Positions 6,504 to 27,474 of a DNA stretch of 64,000 nucleotides are shown here, in pieces. Source of the stretch: Pontibacter sp. G13 (GTDB lineage Bacteria; Bacteroidota; Bacteroidia; J057). The DNA is taken from NCBI RefSeq assembly GCF_031851795.1, contig NZ_CP134696.1:5890001-5954000 (forward strand), given 5' to 3'. A program made the translations under genes and the position numbers. The notes beneath the pieces were generated by a model. It had not been told where the DNA came from, did not search any database, and worked only from the letters and a program-made list of their open reading frames with translations. Within the stretch, counting starts at the first letter, position 1. Each line of letters starts with the position of its first letter.

Positions 6504-6534
6504 TTGATCGGCTTAAACAGTTTGTGTATGTTTG
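6504..6534 (+). promoter_or_regulatory. Bacteroidota-type promoter for hutH
   Basis: TTG at 6504-6506, a 20-bp spacer and TATGTTTG at 6527-6534 match the TTG-N17-23-TAnnTTTG promoter of this phylum exactly. The expected transcription start is about 6541, giving a leader of about 55 nt before the hutH ATG at 6596. Confidence 0.65.
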
Positions 6535-6595
6535 TAGAATTTCCCGCGCCAGATTGGGCGGGGTTTCAAGCAAACATCAAAGGTCTCCGAACATC

Positions 6596-8098
6596 ATGGA
6601 AATCAGTCATCAGAACCTCACGATTGACCAAATCGCGAAGCTCCTGGCCAGCTCCAACCGCCAAGTGAGCTTGTCCGATTCAGCCAAGGCCCGCATACAG
6701 GAATGCCGGGACTATCTGGATACCAGACTCGCCAAGGGCACTGATATCATCTATGGTATCAACACTGGGTTTGGGTATCTCTGCGACAAGGAGATTGCCT
6801 TCGATGACCAGCGACAGCTTCAGATCAACTTGATCCGCTCACATGCATGTGGGATGGGATCCAAGGTCCCTCATGAGATTGTCCGATTGATGCTCCTACT
6901 CAAGGTCAAATCACTCTGCTATGGTCACTCTGGGGTACAGGTAGAGACGGTGCAACGTCTGATCGATTTCTGGAATCACGATGTGCTTCCAGTGGTATAC
7001 ACCCAAGGATCGCTTGGAGCATCTGGTGACCTTTCCCCATTGGCTCATTTGGCTTTGCCACTGATTGGAGAAGGGGAGGTGGAATACCAAGGTCAGCGCA
7101 TGTCAGCGGCAGATATGAATGCCCAGATGGGATGGCAACCCATTTCCCTCAAGGCCAAGGAAGGTCTTGCCCTGCTCAATGGCACCCAGTTCATGCTGGC
7201 GTACGGCATTCATATTCTCCTACAAGGAGAAAGATTGACACACTTGGGCGACCGCGTCGCGGCTTTGAGTTTGGATGCTTTTCATGGCTTGCTCGATCCT
7301 TTTCATCCCAAGCTTCACGAAATTCGCCCTCACCCCGGACAGATCCACACCGCCAAGACCATGCTTGAGTTGTTGGGAGATTCCGAGATCGTCCAGACGG
7401 AAAAGAAGCACGTCCAAGATCCCTATTCCTTCCGATGCATTCCGCAGGTTCACGGAGCCTCCAAGGATGCGATTGCCTATTGCCGGACGGTGTTTGAGCG
7501 CGAGTTGTCGGGAGTGAGTGACAACCCCAACATTTTCGTGGAGGAAGATCTCGTGTTGTCTGGTGGTAATTTTCACGGCCAGCCTTTGGCATTGGCACTG
7601 GATTTCCTCGCCATAGCATTGGCAGAGCTAGGGTCCATTTCCGAGCGCCGGACATATCAGCTGATCTCCGGAACCCGCGGATTGCCGAGCTTTTTGGTGG
7701 CCAATCCAGGGCTTGATTCGGGGATGATGATTCCGCAGTATACGGCAGCTTCCATTGCCTCTCAGAACAAGCAGTTGTGTACTCCGGCTTCGGTGGATAC
7801 CATTCCTTCTTCCAACAATCAGGAGGATCATGTGAGTATGGGAGCCAATGCGGCCACCAAGTGCTTGCGTGTATTGGACAATTTAGAAAGGCTATTTGCC
7901 ATCGAATTGGTGAATGCATCTCAAGCCCTTCACTTCCGCGAGCCCAAGCAGACAGGAACCGCCCTGCGCCCCATGTTGGCTGATTTCCGCAAAGTAGTGC
8001 CCTTTGTTGAACGCGATCGAATCCTCTATCAGGACCTCCATCGAGCCGTGGATTTTGTGGCGGGTTGGCAGCTTGAAATGCCCGCGATAAAAGGCTAG
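6596..8098 (+). CDS. hutH: Histidine ammonia-lyase
   Basis: An aromatic amino acid ammonia-lyase of 500 residues. The MIO-forming tripeptide Ala-Ser-Gly falls at residues 142-144 (GSLGASGDLSPLAH), and SHACGMG places a Ser-His pair with His at residue 83. The same numbers hold in the well-studied Pseudomonas HAL, which supports both the start at 6596 (not the upstream in-frame codon at 6524) and specificity for histidine over Phe/Tyr. It deaminates L-histidine to urocanate. No hutU, hutI or hutG lies nearby, so the rest of the pathway is elsewhere. The next genes make aromatic amino acids, so tyrosine lyase activity is a minor alternative. Confidence 0.88.
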   Translation: MEISHQNLTIDQIAKLLASSNRQVSLSDSAKARIQECRDYLDTRLAKGTDIIYGINTGFGYLCDKEIAFDDQRQLQINLIRSHACGMGSKVPHEIVRLMLLLKVKSLCYGHSGVQVETVQRLIDFWNHDVLPVVYTQGSLGASGDLSPLAHLALPLIGEGEVEYQGQRMSAADMNAQMGWQPISLKAKEGLALLNGTQFMLAYGIHILLQGERLTHLGDRVAALSLDAFHGLLDPFHPKLHEIRPHPGQIHTAKTMLELLGDSEIVQTEKKHVQDPYSFRCIPQVHGASKDAIAYCRTVFERELSGVSDNPNIFVEEDLVLSGGNFHGQPLALALDFLAIALAELGSISERRTYQLISGTRGLPSFLVANPGLDSGMMIPQYTAASIASQNKQLCTPASVDTIPSSNNQEDHVSMGANAATKCLRVLDNLERLFAIELVNASQALHFREPKQTGTALRPMLADFRKVVPFVERDRILYQDLHRAVDFVAGWQLEMPAIKG

Positions 8099-8216: not shown

Positions 8217-8246
8217 TTTGCAAGTACATTCTTTTGCTTATACTTG
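8217..8246 (+). promoter_or_regulatory. Candidate promoter of the aromatic leader and operon
   Basis: TTTG at 8217-8220, 18 bp, then TATACTTG at 8239-8246, one base off the TAnnTTTG consensus. The transcript would begin near 8252, only a few bases before the leader-peptide ATG at 8257, so the leader would be almost leaderless. Confidence 0.5.
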
Positions 8247-8256
8247 TGGCGTAGAC

Positions 8257-8340
8257 ATGAAACAATTCTTCACATACAACGGCTATTATTATTTCTTCTT
8301 TTATTGGTTTAAAGGAAGACTGGGGCCGTGGTATGGCTGA
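8257..8340 (+). CDS. Aromatic-rich leader peptide (attenuator sensor)
   Basis: A 27-codon ORF from ATG to TGA. Fourteen codons are aromatic: six Phe, six Tyr and two Trp. The densest run, codons 10-18, reads YYYFFFYWF (8284-8310). It lies 25 nt before a strong intrinsic terminator and 79 nt before the prephenate dehydratase start. This is the arrangement of a ribosome-mediated attenuator: when charged tRNA-Phe or tRNA-Tyr is scarce the ribosome stalls in the run and termination is prevented. Families of this type (trpL, pheL) are well known; a Bacteroidota tryptophan version has been described as an RNA motif. The Phe/Tyr bias here fits the operon that follows. Too short for ordinary gene callers. 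Confidence 0.88.
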   Translation: MKQFFTYNGYYYFFFYWFKGRLGPWYG

Positions 8341-8364
8341 TTCAGATATACCATCATTTACTTC

Positions 8365-8402
8365 AACGTCCCCAACGATTCAAGTCGGGGACGTTTTTTT
8401 TT
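8365..8402 (+). terminator. Intrinsic terminator of the aromatic attenuator
   Basis: AACGTCCCC (8365-8373) pairs with GGGGACGTT (8387-8395), a GC-rich 9-bp stem with two more pairs possible inside, and the 3' arm runs into nine T residues (8394-8402). It lies between the leader peptide and the prephenate dehydratase start, so it can only act on the operon transcript. A competing pairing, TGGGG (8321-8325) with CCCCA (8370-8374), would break the stem if the ribosome stalls upstream. Confidence 0.88.
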
Positions 8403-8418
8403 GAACTGATTTTCACGC

Positions 8419-9279
8419 ATGGAATTGACCATTACCGGGACACGCCGGATCGCCATTCAAGGAGTCAAGGGAGCATATCACGAGATTGCCGCCCGAAAAT
8501 TTTTCGGAAACGACATCGAACTCGAGATGTGCGACAGCTTTCCGCGATTGTTCCGGGCGCTTTCGGATCAGGCAGCTCAATACGGGGTTGTGGCCATCGA
8601 AAATTCGGTCGCAGGTTCGCTTCTTCCCAATTATGCCCTGCTCCGAAAATCGGACTTGGTCATTGTGGGGGAGGTCTATTTGCGGATTCGCCATTGCCTG
8701 ATGGCTTTGCCGGGTCAATCGCTCAGCCAGATCAAGGAAGTGCACTCACATCCCATGGCGATCCAGCAGTGCCATGATTTCTTCGGAAACCATCCCGAAA
8801 TCAAACTGGTGGAACGGGAAGATACTGCCGGAAGCTCTGCATGGATTGCAGAGAACAACCGCACAGGGGTAGCTGCAATCGCTAGCGAATTGGCCGCTCA
8901 GCATTATGGGTTGGAGGTGATGGCAGCAGGAATCGAAGACAATCCCCGGAATTTTACTCGATTCCTCATCGTCCTAGACCGTGAAACTGCCGAGAAAATG
9001 CCCGTCATCCCCAACAAGGCAAGTGTTTGCTTTCACTTGTTGCACGAGGTGGGAAGCTTGGCCAAGGTACTCGGAATGTTGGGGGAACACGGGATGAACC
9101 TCTCCAAAATCCAATCCATGCCCATTGTGGGAAAGGAGTGGGAGTACGATTTTCACATGGATCTGGAGTTTGAAGACTATCGAGAATTCCTCCAAGCGCT
9201 CAAAGCCATTGAACCCATGATCGATCAGCTCCGCATTTTGGGTGAATACCCCAGAGGCGACAAAGAGACAAATTCCTAA
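8419..9279 (+). CDS. pheA: Prephenate dehydratase
   Basis: A 286-residue monofunctional prephenate dehydratase: prephenate to phenylpyruvate, the phenylalanine branch. Residues about 8-190 form the catalytic domain, with GVKGAYHEIAA near the start, ENSVAGSLLPNYALL and the conserved Thr-Arg-Phe of NFTRFLIV. Residues about 200-280 form an ACT domain (SVCFHLLHEVGSLAKVL) for feedback by phenylalanine. There is no fused chorismate mutase; that activity is in the last gene of the operon. Start ATG 8419 lies 17 nt after the attenuator T-tract. First structural gene of the operon. Confidence 0.95.
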   Translation: MELTITGTRRIAIQGVKGAYHEIAARKFFGNDIELEMCDSFPRLFRALSDQAAQYGVVAIENSVAGSLLPNYALLRKSDLVIVGEVYLRIRHCLMALPGQSLSQIKEVHSHPMAIQQCHDFFGNHPEIKLVEREDTAGSSAWIAENNRTGVAAIASELAAQHYGLEVMAAGIEDNPRNFTRFLIVLDRETAEKMPVIPNKASVCFHLLHEVGSLAKVLGMLGEHGMNLSKIQSMPIVGKEWEYDFHMDLEFEDYREFLQALKAIEPMIDQLRILGEYPRGDKETNS

Positions 9280-9326: not shown

Positions 9327-10523
9327 ATGATCATCGACGCGGCACATAGACTTGACCATATCCAGGAGTATTACTTCGCCGGAAAATTGCGGGAGATTCG
9401 CCGTCGCAATACCGAAGGAGCCGACATCATCAATCTCGGTATCGGGAATCCTGATCAGGGACCTTCGGAAGGTACTGTCAAGGAACTGGCCACTCAGGCC
9501 ATCGACGCTGACAACCACGGCTATCAGCCCTACAAAGGGATTCCAGAACTCAGAAATGCGTTTGCGCAATATTATCTGGGATGCTATGGGGTGACGCTCG
9601 ATCCTGAGACTGAAATCCTACCGTTGATGGGTTCCAAAGAGGGCATCATGCATATCTCGTTGGCATTCCTCAATCCCGGAGATCAGGTGCTTGTGCCCAA
9701 CCCCGGATATCCAGCTTACGCCAGCAATGCGCGCATGGCAGGAGCGGAACCCGTTCTTTATGAACTTACTGAAGCTCAAGGATGGATGCCCGATCTGGAA
9801 CGCCTCGGAGATGCCGATCTCGATCGGGTCAAGATCATGTGGATCAATTATCCGCATATGCCTACTGGCGCGGTTGCAGAGGAGGAAGATTTCGAGCGAT
9901 TGATTCAATTCGCCAAAGCGCATGGGATCTTGCTAGTCAATGACAACCCATACTCGTTGGTGCTGAATCCTGAGCCCCGGTCTATTCTCCATGTACCCGG
10001 GGCCAAAGAGGTCGCCCTGGAACTCAATTCTCTCAGCAAGTCCCACAACATGGCTGGCTGGAGAATCGGGATGGTCGCTGGAAGACAAGATTATGTGGAG
10101 ACAGTTATCCGTGTAAAATCCAATATGGATTCTGGGATGTTCAAGCCCATGCAATTGGCTGCTGTTCACGCACTGAATCAACCTTTGAGCTTCCGGGAAT
10201 CCATCAATCTTGAGTATGCAGCACGCAAGGAAAAAATCGTGGAATTGATGGAGACTTTGGGCTGTGAAGTTCGGCCGGATCAGGTGGGGATGTTCGTTTG
10301 GGCAAGAATCCCTGCTACGCAAGAAAGTGCGGCTACTTATGCCGATCAGATACTCGATGAGGCGAGAGTCTTCATCACTCCCGGGATGATTTTCGGATCT
10401 CAAGGAGCACAATACCTCAGAGCCTCGCTATGTACGCCGATTCCCCGTATTGAGGAAGCACTCGATCGGATTCGGACCGCTCATATTTCCGTTACGACCA
10501 AAGAGACCACCCCATCGATATGA
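9327..10523 (+). CDS. PLP-dependent aminotransferase (class I/II), probably aromatic
   Basis: A 398-residue fold-type I aminotransferase. Visible landmarks are NLGIGNPDQGPSEG near residue 33, the substrate/PLP segment NPGYPAYASNA, Asn/Asp/Tyr in NDNPYSLV and the PLP lysine in SLSKSHNMAGWR. Lying between prephenate dehydratase and prephenate dehydrogenase, it most likely transaminates phenylpyruvate and 4-hydroxyphenylpyruvate to Phe and Tyr. Sequence alone does not exclude a broader aspartate or LL-DAP-type substrate. Its stop overlaps the next start by 4 nt (ATGA at 10520). Confidence 0.85.
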   Translation: MIIDAAHRLDHIQEYYFAGKLREIRRRNTEGADIINLGIGNPDQGPSEGTVKELATQAIDADNHGYQPYKGIPELRNAFAQYYLGCYGVTLDPETEILPLMGSKEGIMHISLAFLNPGDQVLVPNPGYPAYASNARMAGAEPVLYELTEAQGWMPDLERLGDADLDRVKIMWINYPHMPTGAVAEEEDFERLIQFAKAHGILLVNDNPYSLVLNPEPRSILHVPGAKEVALELNSLSKSHNMAGWRIGMVAGRQDYVETVIRVKSNMDSGMFKPMQLAAVHALNQPLSFRESINLEYAARKEKIVELMETLGCEVRPDQVGMFVWARIPATQESAATYADQILDEARVFITPGMIFGSQGAQYLRASLCTPIPRIEEALDRIRTAHISVTTKETTPSI

Positions 10524-11386
10524 ATATTGCAATTGTAGGCCTTGGACTGATAGGCGGCTCGCTGGCCAAGGACCTGCGCGCCAATGGATTTGCCAGTAAG
10601 CTCACAGGCGTAGATTCCTCTAGCATCCACCGCAGAGTAGCTTTGGAATTGGGCTTGGTGGATGAGTGTCTTCCCTTGGAAGATGCTGTTTTCGAAGCGG
10701 ATCTGGTCGTTTTGGCGATTCCAGTCCGTGCACTCTGCCAAGGGATGGTGGAAGTCTTGAACCAGATCGACGAAGACGCCGTGGTGGTGGACATGGGTTC
10801 GACCAAGGCTGAAATTGCCGAAGCTATCCAAGGTCATCCCCTCCGCAAGCGCGCAGTATTGGCGCATCCCATGGCAGGAACCGAGTATTCCGGCCCCCAG
10901 GCTGCTGTCAGCAATCTGTTCCAGGGGAAAGCTGCCATCATCTGTGATCGTGATGATAGCGATCCGGATGCTGTCAGGCTGGCGGAGCGAATGTTCCAGT
11001 CCTTGTTTATGCGGGTGGTGTACATGGAATCCAAGGAGCACGATGTCCATGCGGCATACGTTTCTCACATTTCCCACATCAGCTCATTTGCCTTGGCGCT
11101 CACGGTACTGGAAAAGGAAGCTTCCTCAGCCAATATCTTCAACTTGGCCAGCGGGGGATTTCGGTCAACGGTGCGATTGGCCAAGAGCAATCCCACGATG
11201 TGGAGAGATGTTTTCGAGCAAAACTCCCAAAACCTATTGGATGTGCTGGACAATTATCTCGAACACGTACAAGATTTTCGCAATGATATAGCCCAAGGCG
11301 ACTTCCAACAGGCTTTCCGCCGAATGGAACAAGCCAATGCCATAGGGCCGATTCTGGATCAAGTCTTCGAATCGACCGTCAAGTAA
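10520..11386 (+). CDS. tyrA: Prephenate dehydrogenase
   Basis: A 288-residue TyrA of the short monofunctional type. It has an N-terminal Rossmann domain (GLGLIGGSLAKDL), the catalytic-site motif HPMAGTEYSGPQ and an all-helical C-terminal domain with SHISHISSFALAL. It converts prephenate to 4-hydroxyphenylpyruvate with NAD(P)+ for tyrosine synthesis. There is no ACT domain at the C-terminus, so feedback control, if any, must act elsewhere. Start and stop codons overlap those of the aminotransferase by 4 nt, implying translational coupling. Confidence 0.94.
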   Translation: MNIAIVGLGLIGGSLAKDLRANGFASKLTGVDSSSIHRRVALELGLVDECLPLEDAVFEADLVVLAIPVRALCQGMVEVLNQIDEDAVVVDMGSTKAEIAEAIQGHPLRKRAVLAHPMAGTEYSGPQAAVSNLFQGKAAIICDRDDSDPDAVRLAERMFQSLFMRVVYMESKEHDVHAAYVSHISHISSFALALTVLEKEASSANIFNLASGGFRSTVRLAKSNPTMWRDVFEQNSQNLLDVLDNYLEHVQDFRNDIAQGDFQQAFRRMEQANAIGPILDQVFESTVK

Positions 11387-11484: not shown

Positions 11485-12591
11485 ATGAAGCCACTGGAAA
11501 TCATACCCATGAAAGATTGGGGGCTCGGCCTTCAAGATTTCGTTACCATTTCAGGCCCATGTAGCGCTGAAACGGAAGAACAAGTCATGCAATCCATCCA
11601 GGGGGTTGCTCAGCACGAGGTACATATCCTGCGTGCAGGAATTTGGAAGCCACGTACCCGCCCGAATTCCTTCGAAGGTATCGGCAGCGTAGGCCTCAAA
11701 TGGCTCAAAGATGCAGGAGAAGCCGTAGGCAAACCTGTATGTGTGGAGGTCGCCAATGTAAAGCACGTCTACGAAGCGCTCAGAACGGGGATCGACATCC
11801 TGTGGCTAGGGGCACGAACGACCACCAACCCATTTGCCGTTCAGGAAATTGCTGATGCCCTCAAAGGGGTGGATATTCCTGTGATGGTGAAAAACCCCGT
11901 GAATCCGGACCTGCAATTGTGGATCGGGGCTATGGAACGTCTTCAAGGTGCGGGAATCACCAAAATGGCGGCCATTCACCGCGGATTCTCCACCTACGGA
12001 AAGTCCAAGTACCGCAACCAACCTCAGTGGGAAATTCCGATTGAGCTTCGCCGTACACACCCCAATTTGCCGATCGTCTGCGATCCCAGCCATATCTGTG
12101 GAACTCGGGACTTGTTGTTCGATGTGTCCCAAAAGGCATTGGACCTCAACTTCAATGGCTTGATGCTGGAATCTCACATCAATCCAGAAGTGGCACTTTC
12201 GGACAAAAAGCAGCAGGTAACGCCTGATCAGCTTGGAGAGATCCTCGGCAACTTGGTCTTCCGCCAATCCAAGGTGGACAACCCAATGCTTGCCAATAAG
12301 CTGGAATTGCTCCGTGAAGAAATTGATGAATTGGACCACCGCCTTATCGACCTGTTGGCTGAACGGATGCAAGTGGTTGAGCAGATTGGCCGCTACAAGA
12401 AGGAAAACAATGTCACCATCTACCAGAATAATCGCTGGAATGGCGTCATTCGGGATCGGATCGCCTACGCGGAACCTCAGGGAATTAGTCCTGATATTCT
12501 CGCGGAGATTCTGCAGATGATCCACAAGGAATCCATTCGTCACCAGACCAAGGTGATGAATCAGCAGGACGAACCTGCGACACAAGCCTAA
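11485..12591 (+). CDS. Bifunctional DAHP synthase / chorismate mutase
   Basis: The N-terminal about 265 residues are a type I-beta DAHP synthase (SGPCSAETEEQV, RAGIWKPRTRPNSFEG, IVCDPSHICGTRDLL), the first committed step of the shikimate pathway. Residues about 272-360 are an AroQ-type chorismate mutase (LRREEID-like LREEIDELDHRLIDLLAERM). This fusion order is typical of Bacteroidota and lets the mutase domain mediate end-product control of the synthase. The gene is 98 nt after tyrA and is followed by a strong terminator, so it closes the operon. With pheA, the aminotransferase and tyrA it covers both the entry to the shikimate pathway and the Phe/Tyr branches. Confidence 0.95.
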   Translation: MKPLEIIPMKDWGLGLQDFVTISGPCSAETEEQVMQSIQGVAQHEVHILRAGIWKPRTRPNSFEGIGSVGLKWLKDAGEAVGKPVCVEVANVKHVYEALRTGIDILWLGARTTTNPFAVQEIADALKGVDIPVMVKNPVNPDLQLWIGAMERLQGAGITKMAAIHRGFSTYGKSKYRNQPQWEIPIELRRTHPNLPIVCDPSHICGTRDLLFDVSQKALDLNFNGLMLESHINPEVALSDKKQQVTPDQLGEILGNLVFRQSKVDNPMLANKLELLREEIDELDHRLIDLLAERMQVVEQIGRYKKENNVTIYQNNRWNGVIRDRIAYAEPQGISPDILAEILQMIHKESIRHQTKVMNQQDEPATQA

Positions 12592-26495: not shown

Positions 26496-27474
26496 GATCG
26501 TATTTGTTGAGTTGAATCATTCCTACTCTGTTAAGGCTTTTCGGAATCCGCCTAATAATCTTGCGCTGCGTAGCGGTAGGCCTTTTCTGCGTTCGATTAC
26601 ATGATCCAAAGGTGGAAGATTTCCCATCTCGATAAATCCTCCTAAATGATCAATCTGATAAATGCGACTATTGGGCTGAATGAGTGGATTTTAGGCGTTG
26701 CAGAAATGGGGCTCAAAGGTCTGTAGAGGGGGTTCTCCTTTGTGACTGCGAATGGAATGCAGGTTTTGGATGAAAGGAAATAGGTGGGGGGAATCTAAAA
26801 GGTGGCTGCGAATGCCTCAAAAGCGTTGCCGAGGATATGCGGGAAGTACGCGTGTTGAATAAATATTGGCAGATAGAGATGGTTTGATTCCGCTTGTCGT
26901 ACTTAAATGCTCATGATCCAGCGTCAGAAGCTCTTGGCGAATGGGAGGAATGAATTCGGGGAGTGTTGTATGTATCAGGAAGTTGTCAATCAGTGAATAT
27001 TCATTAAGCCCCATGTTCGGAATGCTCAGACCAAGGATATTCGGAAAGATCCACACGAGTTGCGGGCTAGGTACAAATACGTGACTTCATGAAGGGTTTT
27101 GAGCTTTGGGCAACTCCCTGAAATTTTTTACATGGATGTTTTATTCCTTCCCATTCGGTCGAATGTATCCCCCCTTTTGGATGGAAGGATTGGCAGGAAT
27201 CACTGAAATGACCTGGCTATTATCGGTCTGAAGGGGAGCGAAATACTCGGTTCTGTATAGATGGAGGGACCTTCACGGCTATCCTTGTTTTTTATGACGT
27301 GCAATTTTTTTTAAAATAAAAGGATCGTGAACTGTTTTTTGCAAGAATGATTTCGATTATATGATATAATTATTTTGTGTGAATTTTTGCATGGATTGAA
27401 TGTGGTGATTCTTATATTGGAAATAAGGCTTGGTCCGTATGTATCCCCTTTATGTAAATTTCTAATTGTTTACG
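26496..27474. other. Large divergent intergenic region (about 980 bp)
   Basis: Sits between the unknown paralogue pair and the ferritin-like/LodA/LodB genes and should hold both promoters. The right third (27290-27470) is strongly AT-rich. Short ORFs on either strand lack coding character. I found no exact TAnnTTTG box in a good position, no strong hairpin and no RNA gene. Confidence 0.4.

Follow-up and report, generated by a model that had tools for sequence, protein, structure and literature searches.

How does a member of the Bacteroidota match its synthesis of phenylalanine (Phe) and tyrosine (Tyr) to their supply? The question is raised by a locus of Pontibacter sp. G13 (GCF_031851795.1) within the 64,000-nucleotide (nt) stretch from 5,890,001 to 5,954,000 of the forward strand of NZ_CP134696.1, hereafter the window, where a short open reading frame (ORF) crowded with aromatic codons and a terminator-like hairpin stand immediately before pheA. 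Sequence comparison and modelled folds lead us to conclude that the element is very probably a classical ribosome-mediated transcription attenuator, with a predicted response to charged tRNA-Phe and tRNA-Tyr together.

An aromatic leader ORF and an intrinsic terminator precede pheA

The leader ORF (8257-8340, + strand) translates as MKQFFTYNGYYYFFFYWFKGRLGPWYG. Re-reading it bore out an earlier sequence-only account of the locus, the preliminary description, which had given it 27 codons, 14 of them aromatic (6 Phe, 6 Tyr, and 2 Trp). That account had also placed a GC-rich hairpin with nine T at 8365-8402 and the start of pheA at 8419; the hairpin (8365-8395) is present in minimum free energy (MFE) and centroid structures alike, and the product of the gene starting at 8419 carries PDT and ACT domains. 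The 179-nt leader folds with a z of -3.83, and 0/200 dinucleotide shuffles folded as well. A simple terminator scan covering only loops of 3-8 missed the terminator at 8365-8402, whose hairpin has a longer loop. The parts of the element are as follows.

8257-8340, + strand: leader ORF, 27 codons and stop (sequence, ORF translation).
8284-8310, + strand: aromatic block, codons 10-18 (YYYFFFYWF), the expected stalling site (sequence, leader survey).
8321-8329, + strand: segment 2, the antiterminator arm, 8321-8325 pairing with 8370-8374 and 8327-8329 with 8366-8368 (stalled-ribosome fold, covariation over 88 loci).
8365-8374, + strand: segment 3, the terminator 5' arm, common to both exclusive helices (folds).
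8365-8402, + strand: intrinsic terminator, hairpin 8365-8395 and T run 8394-8402 of nine T (sequence, fold, hairpin finder).

The leader and terminator are conserved upstream of pheA

If this arrangement is regulatory, it should recur in relatives, as the preliminary description had proposed to check. PheA matches were found in 23/60 near genomes and in 116/396 genomes of the class, the Pontibacter genome being counted in both; one near genome (G009) was excluded, its contig starting within the gene. Setting aside four fragments (G043, G143, G315, and G379) left 112 regions, to which we added two named records, the same two loci that a search of the genome contigs yielded, for 114 regions in all, two of them with short upstream sequence (L013, 530 nt; L079, 282 nt). 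To be scored as a leader, an ORF had to lie in the final 420 nt and to place six or more aromatics among 12 codons. ORFs of this kind were present in 86/114 regions on the sense strand, against 12 on the reverse strand; L075 and L076, where 12 codons hold 5 aromatics, were added by hand to give 88 leader loci. These fall into 22 groups: 20 family labels, with each of the two named records forming a group of its own. A Phe/Tyr-rich leader thus stands upstream of pheA in 88/114 regions and covers at least 20 families.

In every one of the 88 leader loci, the stretch from the aromatic block to pheA also holds a hairpin with a run of four or more T behind it, so that leader and terminator occur together in 88/114 regions; their absence from relatives, which the preliminary description had named as a refutation, was thus not observed. 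The same hairpin and T-run finder passed 12/440 dinucleotide shuffles of those stretches; running against the simplest story, it also passed 4/26 upstream regions that lack a leader. Across the 10-codon blocks of the 88 loci, 661/880 codons specify Phe or Tyr in frame, where the alternative frames give 185 and 175 and shuffled nucleotides give 307 (standard deviation (sd) 10).

The antiterminator covaries with the terminator

The preliminary description had called for covariance folding and had pointed to a pairing of TGGGG (8321-8325) with CCCCA (8370-8374) as a weak antiterminator. That pairing does form in the stalled-ribosome fold of the window, together with 8327-8329 : 8366-8368. In the window the helix is indeed short (5 bp plus 3), but over the 88 loci the longest ungapped helix between segments 2 and 3 has a median of 8 bp, as against 5 bp for swapped arms. 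Ungapped helices of at least 7 bp were present in 68/88 loci and in 28% of swaps.

For the swaps, the 45 nt 3' of the aromatic block were paired with the terminator 5' arm, either their own or one exchanged between families. With one locus per group over the 22 groups, segment 2 paired with its own arm at a mean of -15.3 kcal, compared with -9.9 for swapped arms (z -8.8), a result unmatched by any of 2000 permutations in each of 10 draws. The two terminator arms set against each other, as a positive control, gave a z of -12.7, and pre-ATG sequence, as a negative control, gave no signal with either the 5' arm or segment 2. The helices themselves differ from family to family with compensation on both sides, for example GAGCGGGA/TCCCGCTC, GGCAGGA/TCCTGCC, CGAGACCT/AGGTCTCG, and ACGGGAGG/CCTCCCGT. 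Antiterminator and terminator thus covary. Segment 2 also shares longer words with its own terminator 3' arm (5.26) than with the 3' arms of the remaining groups (4.35), p being at most 0.0027 over ten draws, a resemblance expected of two segments that compete for one.

The first paired base of segment 2 lies 4-16 nt (median 10) 3' of the block. In partition-function folds with a ribosome stalled in the block, the 2:3 helix reached at least 0.5 in 86/88 loci when sequence was left free from +9 and in 88/88 when free from +6; with the ribosome at the stop codon, the 3:4 helix did so in 88/88.

Phe and Tyr supply is predicted to control the operon

From the anatomy, conservation, covariation, and predicted folds observed, we infer that the leader is translated, that ribosomes stall in it, and that read-through changes in consequence. 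The leader ORF is rich in codons for the products of the operon, a terminator lies between it and the first structural gene, and the computed antiterminator is exclusive with that terminator and begins just past the regulatory codons, all as expected of an attenuator. In such a system the ribosome would follow RNA polymerase along the leader. Were Phe or Tyr short, it would stall in codons 10-18 and leave segment 2 (from 8321) free to pair with segment 3; this would block the terminator and allow transcription of pheA, the aminotransferase gene, tyrA, and the DAHP synthase/chorismate mutase gene. With both amino acids plentiful, the ribosome would reach the stop codon and mask segment 2, whereupon segments 3 and 4 would pair and transcription would stop at the T run. 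The earlier proposal that Phe/Tyr supply controls this operon by attenuation is thus strengthened, as a prediction, by the conservation of the leader and the covariation of antiterminator and terminator.

Several observations weigh against this account. There is no leader in 26/114 pheA upstream regions; ranked locus by locus, only 49/88 segments pair better with their own arm than with 95% of the arms from other families; in 12/88 loci segment 2 starts more than 24 nt before the stop codon, and a ribosome stopped there may leave part of the segment uncovered; and family f40 includes two loci whose antiterminators are weak (-5.4 and -7.8 kcal). A protector, which would hold segment 2 and free the terminator when the leader is untranslated, also does not appear to be general: folded untranslated and before arm 4, 2:3 reaches at least 0.5 in 65/88 loci and 1:2 in 12/88. 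The window itself has a candidate.

8279-8329, + strand: possible protector hairpin (segment 1:2), 8279-8284 : 8324-8329 and 8294-8303 : 8310-8319 (centroid and MFE fold).

In swap tests the leader coding sequence did prefer its own following segment (z -7.5 over the whole 45 nt; by sub-region, -3.3 for nt 7-22, -4.4 for nt 23-40, and -0.7 for nt 1-8), but we do not rely on this pairing for a protector because the folding disagrees. With arm 4 present, the untranslated leader formed 3:4 at 0.5 or more in 85/88 loci.

The leader probably reads Phe and Tyr, and other explanations fare poorly

The preliminary description had envisaged one sensor for two or three amino acids. Phe and Tyr stood up to the survey, both being present in 88/88 leaders, with at least two of each in 87/88. 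Trp did not: of the aromatics in the leaders it makes up 33/779 (4.2%), whereas its share is 15.2% in 37 mechanical window ORFs of at least 300 aa, and in this genome a separate leader with three Trp codons precedes trpE. On these observations Trp was rejected as a third signal. Judged by its codons, the sensor reads two amino acids, Phe and Tyr. That it senses mainly one of them, the other appearing through codon similarity or chance, is improbable. Phe and Tyr codons are one base apart, and the last block codon is Phe in 57/88 loci and Tyr in 26/88, as a single-amino-acid sensor might have it; alternation of the two, with 365 F/Y switches against 307.7 expected over all loci, falls to a weak z of 1.4 (range 0.6-2.3) with one locus per group, and was dropped as proof of bivalence on that ground. 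Set against this reading are the near-universal presence of at least two codons of each kind and the last six block codons, which hold both amino acids in 88/88 loci where random dealing gives 82.2 (sd 2.1).

A strongly aromatic leader could instead act through its peptide, jamming the ribosome upon free Phe or Tyr rather than through a wait for charged tRNA, and a TnaC-like leader of this kind could drive the same RNA switch. We consider this very unlikely: Phe/Tyr richness is common to the 88 loci and a fixed peptide sequence is not, no conserved residues at fixed positions were found, and Phe and Tyr interchange at all positions when the block is numbered backwards from its end. A structured 5' element with a terminator ahead of a biosynthetic operon would also suit a metabolite riboswitch, a T-box, or a protein-controlled terminator with no translated leader, yet any of these would leave the frame-specific Phe/Tyr codons unexplained. 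An Rfam covariance search returned no family at threshold in the leader of the window or in those of 20 relatives (near the window leader, the best sub-threshold match reached 24.1 bits, where the cut-off is 54), and we regard this class of explanation as extremely improbable. Finally, the upstream histidine ammonia-lyase gene lies on the same strand and stops at 8098, and the hairpin might be its terminator and the ORF a chance one. We give that next to no credence, as the hairpin lies ~270 nt past that gene and adjoins pheA, leader and terminator are kept together in most pheA upstream regions, and the ORF segment covaries with the hairpin.

The leader tends to accompany DAHP synthase/chorismate mutase

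Attenuation by Phe and Tyr together would fit the gene content 3' of the leader, whose products serve the synthesis of both amino acids, in the following order.

8419-9279, + strand: pheA, prephenate dehydratase (PDT and ACT domains).
9327-10523, + strand: class I/II aminotransferase (profile matches).
10520-11386, + strand: tyrA, prephenate dehydrogenase (match over the NCBIfam cut-off).
11485-12591, + strand: DAHP synthase/chorismate mutase fusion (profile matches).

Operon content was fetched for 44/88 leader loci, for three genomes of other classes, and for 25/26 non-leader loci (G242 was left out; among the rest, the contig of G151 is only 4.7 kb, and five loci had downstream DNA only). 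A homologue of the fusion gene lies downstream on the same strand in 47/47 leader operons, weakly so in G451 (33% identity), and a tyrA homologue was found by tblastn in 30/47. In five genomes the leader and terminator stand ahead of the fusion gene and not of pheA: in four (G262, G142, G298, and G112) that gene is upstream of pheA, and in the fifth (G044) it is away from it. Other counts run against a simple story. The fusion gene lies downstream of 5/25 pheA genes without a leader (G017, G021, G045, G087, and G270); among 19 fusion-gene loci in 18 genomes, only two (G112 and G044) have leader and terminator; and in family f18 (8 genomes), f72, and others the fusion gene occurs with no leader and terminator at either gene. 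In G041, G285, and G270, where an aromatic-rich ORF precedes the fusion gene, a terminator was sought after the ORF and none was found. We take the leader to tend to accompany the operon together with the pathway entry enzyme that feeds Phe and Tyr, as an association and not a rule. As a separate observation, the Tyr/Phe-rich ORFs 5' of the fusion gene in G285 and G041 (L263 and L264, family f28) end in FYWYC or FYYWYC.

Outside the class, 3/20 pheA upstream regions have a Phe/Tyr leader, and the PheA proteins of these three score highest among the 20. They come from other classes of the phylum (L156, L159, and L162, in G411, G518, and G451), and their PheA is Bacteroidia-like, which suggests either that the operon was transferred with its leader or that the contigs are misplaced.

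As for its surroundings, the histidine ammonia-lyase gene (6524-8098, + strand; TIGR01225, 611.9 bits, over the cut-off) lies directly 5' of the aromatic operon, and elsewhere in the window, at 26520-26554 on the - strand, there is a match to the DUF805b RNA motif (RF02914; 50.9 bits, cut-off 35.6). In one relative (G084), a Flavo-1 RNA (RF01705, 78.6 bits; L093 484-561, +) lies ~240 nt 5' of the Phe/Tyr leader, on the strand opposite to pheA.

The leader transcript may be almost leaderless

A promoter-like site stands close to the leader ATG.

8217-8246, + strand: promoter-like site, TTTG at 8217-8220 and a TAnnTTTG-like box, TATACTTG, at 8239-8246 (sequence, consensus match).

There are 10 nt between the end of this box and the ATG; the survey script picked TACTTGTG in the window, which overlaps it. 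The flavobacterial promoter box has been placed at -12 to -5, at least in the passages cited (PMC9723704), and on that placing transcription in the window would start near 8251, with a 5' untranslated region (UTR) of ~6 nt. A TAnnTTTG-like box with at least 5/6 matches, by consensus alone, precedes the leader ATG in 79/88 loci. In 23 loci its end lies no more than 11 nt from the ATG and in 53 loci 15-35 nt; the remaining three loci have distances of 12, 67, and 71 nt. The 23 include L003, where the script chose an ATG inside the promoter box and the following ATG is the likelier start; that locus excepted, the distance in the family of the window is 4-11 nt. 5' UTRs in this family would then be ~0-7 nt long, as predicted from the consensus boxes, and translation of the leader may begin on an mRNA with next to no 5' UTR. 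Leaderless mRNAs make up 5.5% in F. psychrophilum according to the same source in the portion cited (PMC9723704).

Taken together, these patterns allow a larger proposal, which we put forward tentatively and rate a little short of an even chance: that a bivalent Phe/Tyr attenuator, widespread in the class, belongs to the DAHP synthase/chorismate mutase unit and not to pheA as such, with shortage of either amino acid opening the entry step, and that in the family of the window and some others it is read from an almost leaderless transcript, the pioneer ribosome loading at the RNA 5' end with no Shine-Dalgarno sequence.

Other leader-like ORFs occur in the same genome

The Trp leader noted above has a strong hairpin along with its three Trp codons upstream of trpE (L131 1290-1347, in trpE orientation). 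A leader-like ORF with 7 His in 10 codons precedes hisG (L132 1092-1194), where a clear terminator was sought after the ORF and none was found, and an Ile/Leu/Val-rich ORF with a hairpin lies upstream of genes including ilvD (L133 247-313). A Phe leader at pheS was not found, since in the upstream stretch examined every ORF has at most 4 Phe/Tyr in 10 codons. The frame of the homoserine dehydrogenase gene is open up to the very beginning of the sequence examined at that gene. Runs of six Phe/Tyr codons number 21 genome-wide, and the reversed pattern 23, so such runs are not in themselves unusual; among the 11 of 12 distinct run sites examined, only that of the window has a short ORF and, after it, a hairpin with a T run.

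Relation to known systems and meaning for the Bacteroidota

The mechanism itself is textbook. Attenuators are described for the enteric pheA, trp, thr, and ilv operons, among the cases treated in the text cited (PMC1183508). Like these, the element described here combines a leader ORF of regulatory codons, an exclusive antiterminator and terminator, and a biosynthetic operon. The pheL leader of E. coli we take to be a Phe leader without Tyr; unlike it, the leader of the window mixes Phe and Tyr, and its operon adds tyrA and the DAHP synthase/chorismate mutase gene. Bivalence by itself has precedents in leaders that serve several amino acids, such as the thr leader with its Thr and Ile codons. 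The Bacteroid-trp RNA (RF01692) is a Bacteroidota trp leader, by the portions cited of PMC2864571 (Table 1) and of PMC6414381, where it is discussed. It resembles the present element in belonging to the Bacteroidota and in leading an aromatic amino acid operon, and differs in that its operon is that of Trp; no RF01692 match was found in the window or in 20 relatives.

The closest precedent is in Flavobacteriaceae, for which the cited part of one account (PMC9723704) reports conserved 5' elements without Rfam hits at pheA and hisG and sees strong signs that leader peptides attenuate amino-acid operons. The pheA element described there is very probably the same as ours; the cited part does not give the codons, a joint Phe/Tyr sensor, alternative helices, or a reach beyond the family. 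Our literature search found no other account of a Phe/Tyr leader in Bacteroidota, and an earlier prediction is possible in Lopatovskaya 2010 and Vitreschak 2004. What is added here is the use of Phe and Tyr codons together, covarying helices that exclude each other, a spread across 20 or more families, and the association of the leader with DAHP synthase/chorismate mutase. Before it presented its own Firmicutes case, a 2010 report stated, in the portion cited, that no leader-peptide system was known outside Proteobacteria and Actinobacteria, the atypical ermC leader aside (PMC2965389).

A single Bacteroidota genome has leader-like ORFs ahead of genes for Phe/Tyr, Trp, His, and Ile/Leu/Val. The attenuator reading also raises the question of how attenuation is kept in synchrony where Shine-Dalgarno sequences see little use. 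If our reading is true, the unexplained 5' elements of flavobacterial pheA would become a specific, widespread, and testable control of Phe and Tyr synthesis through a single sensor in the Bacteroidota.
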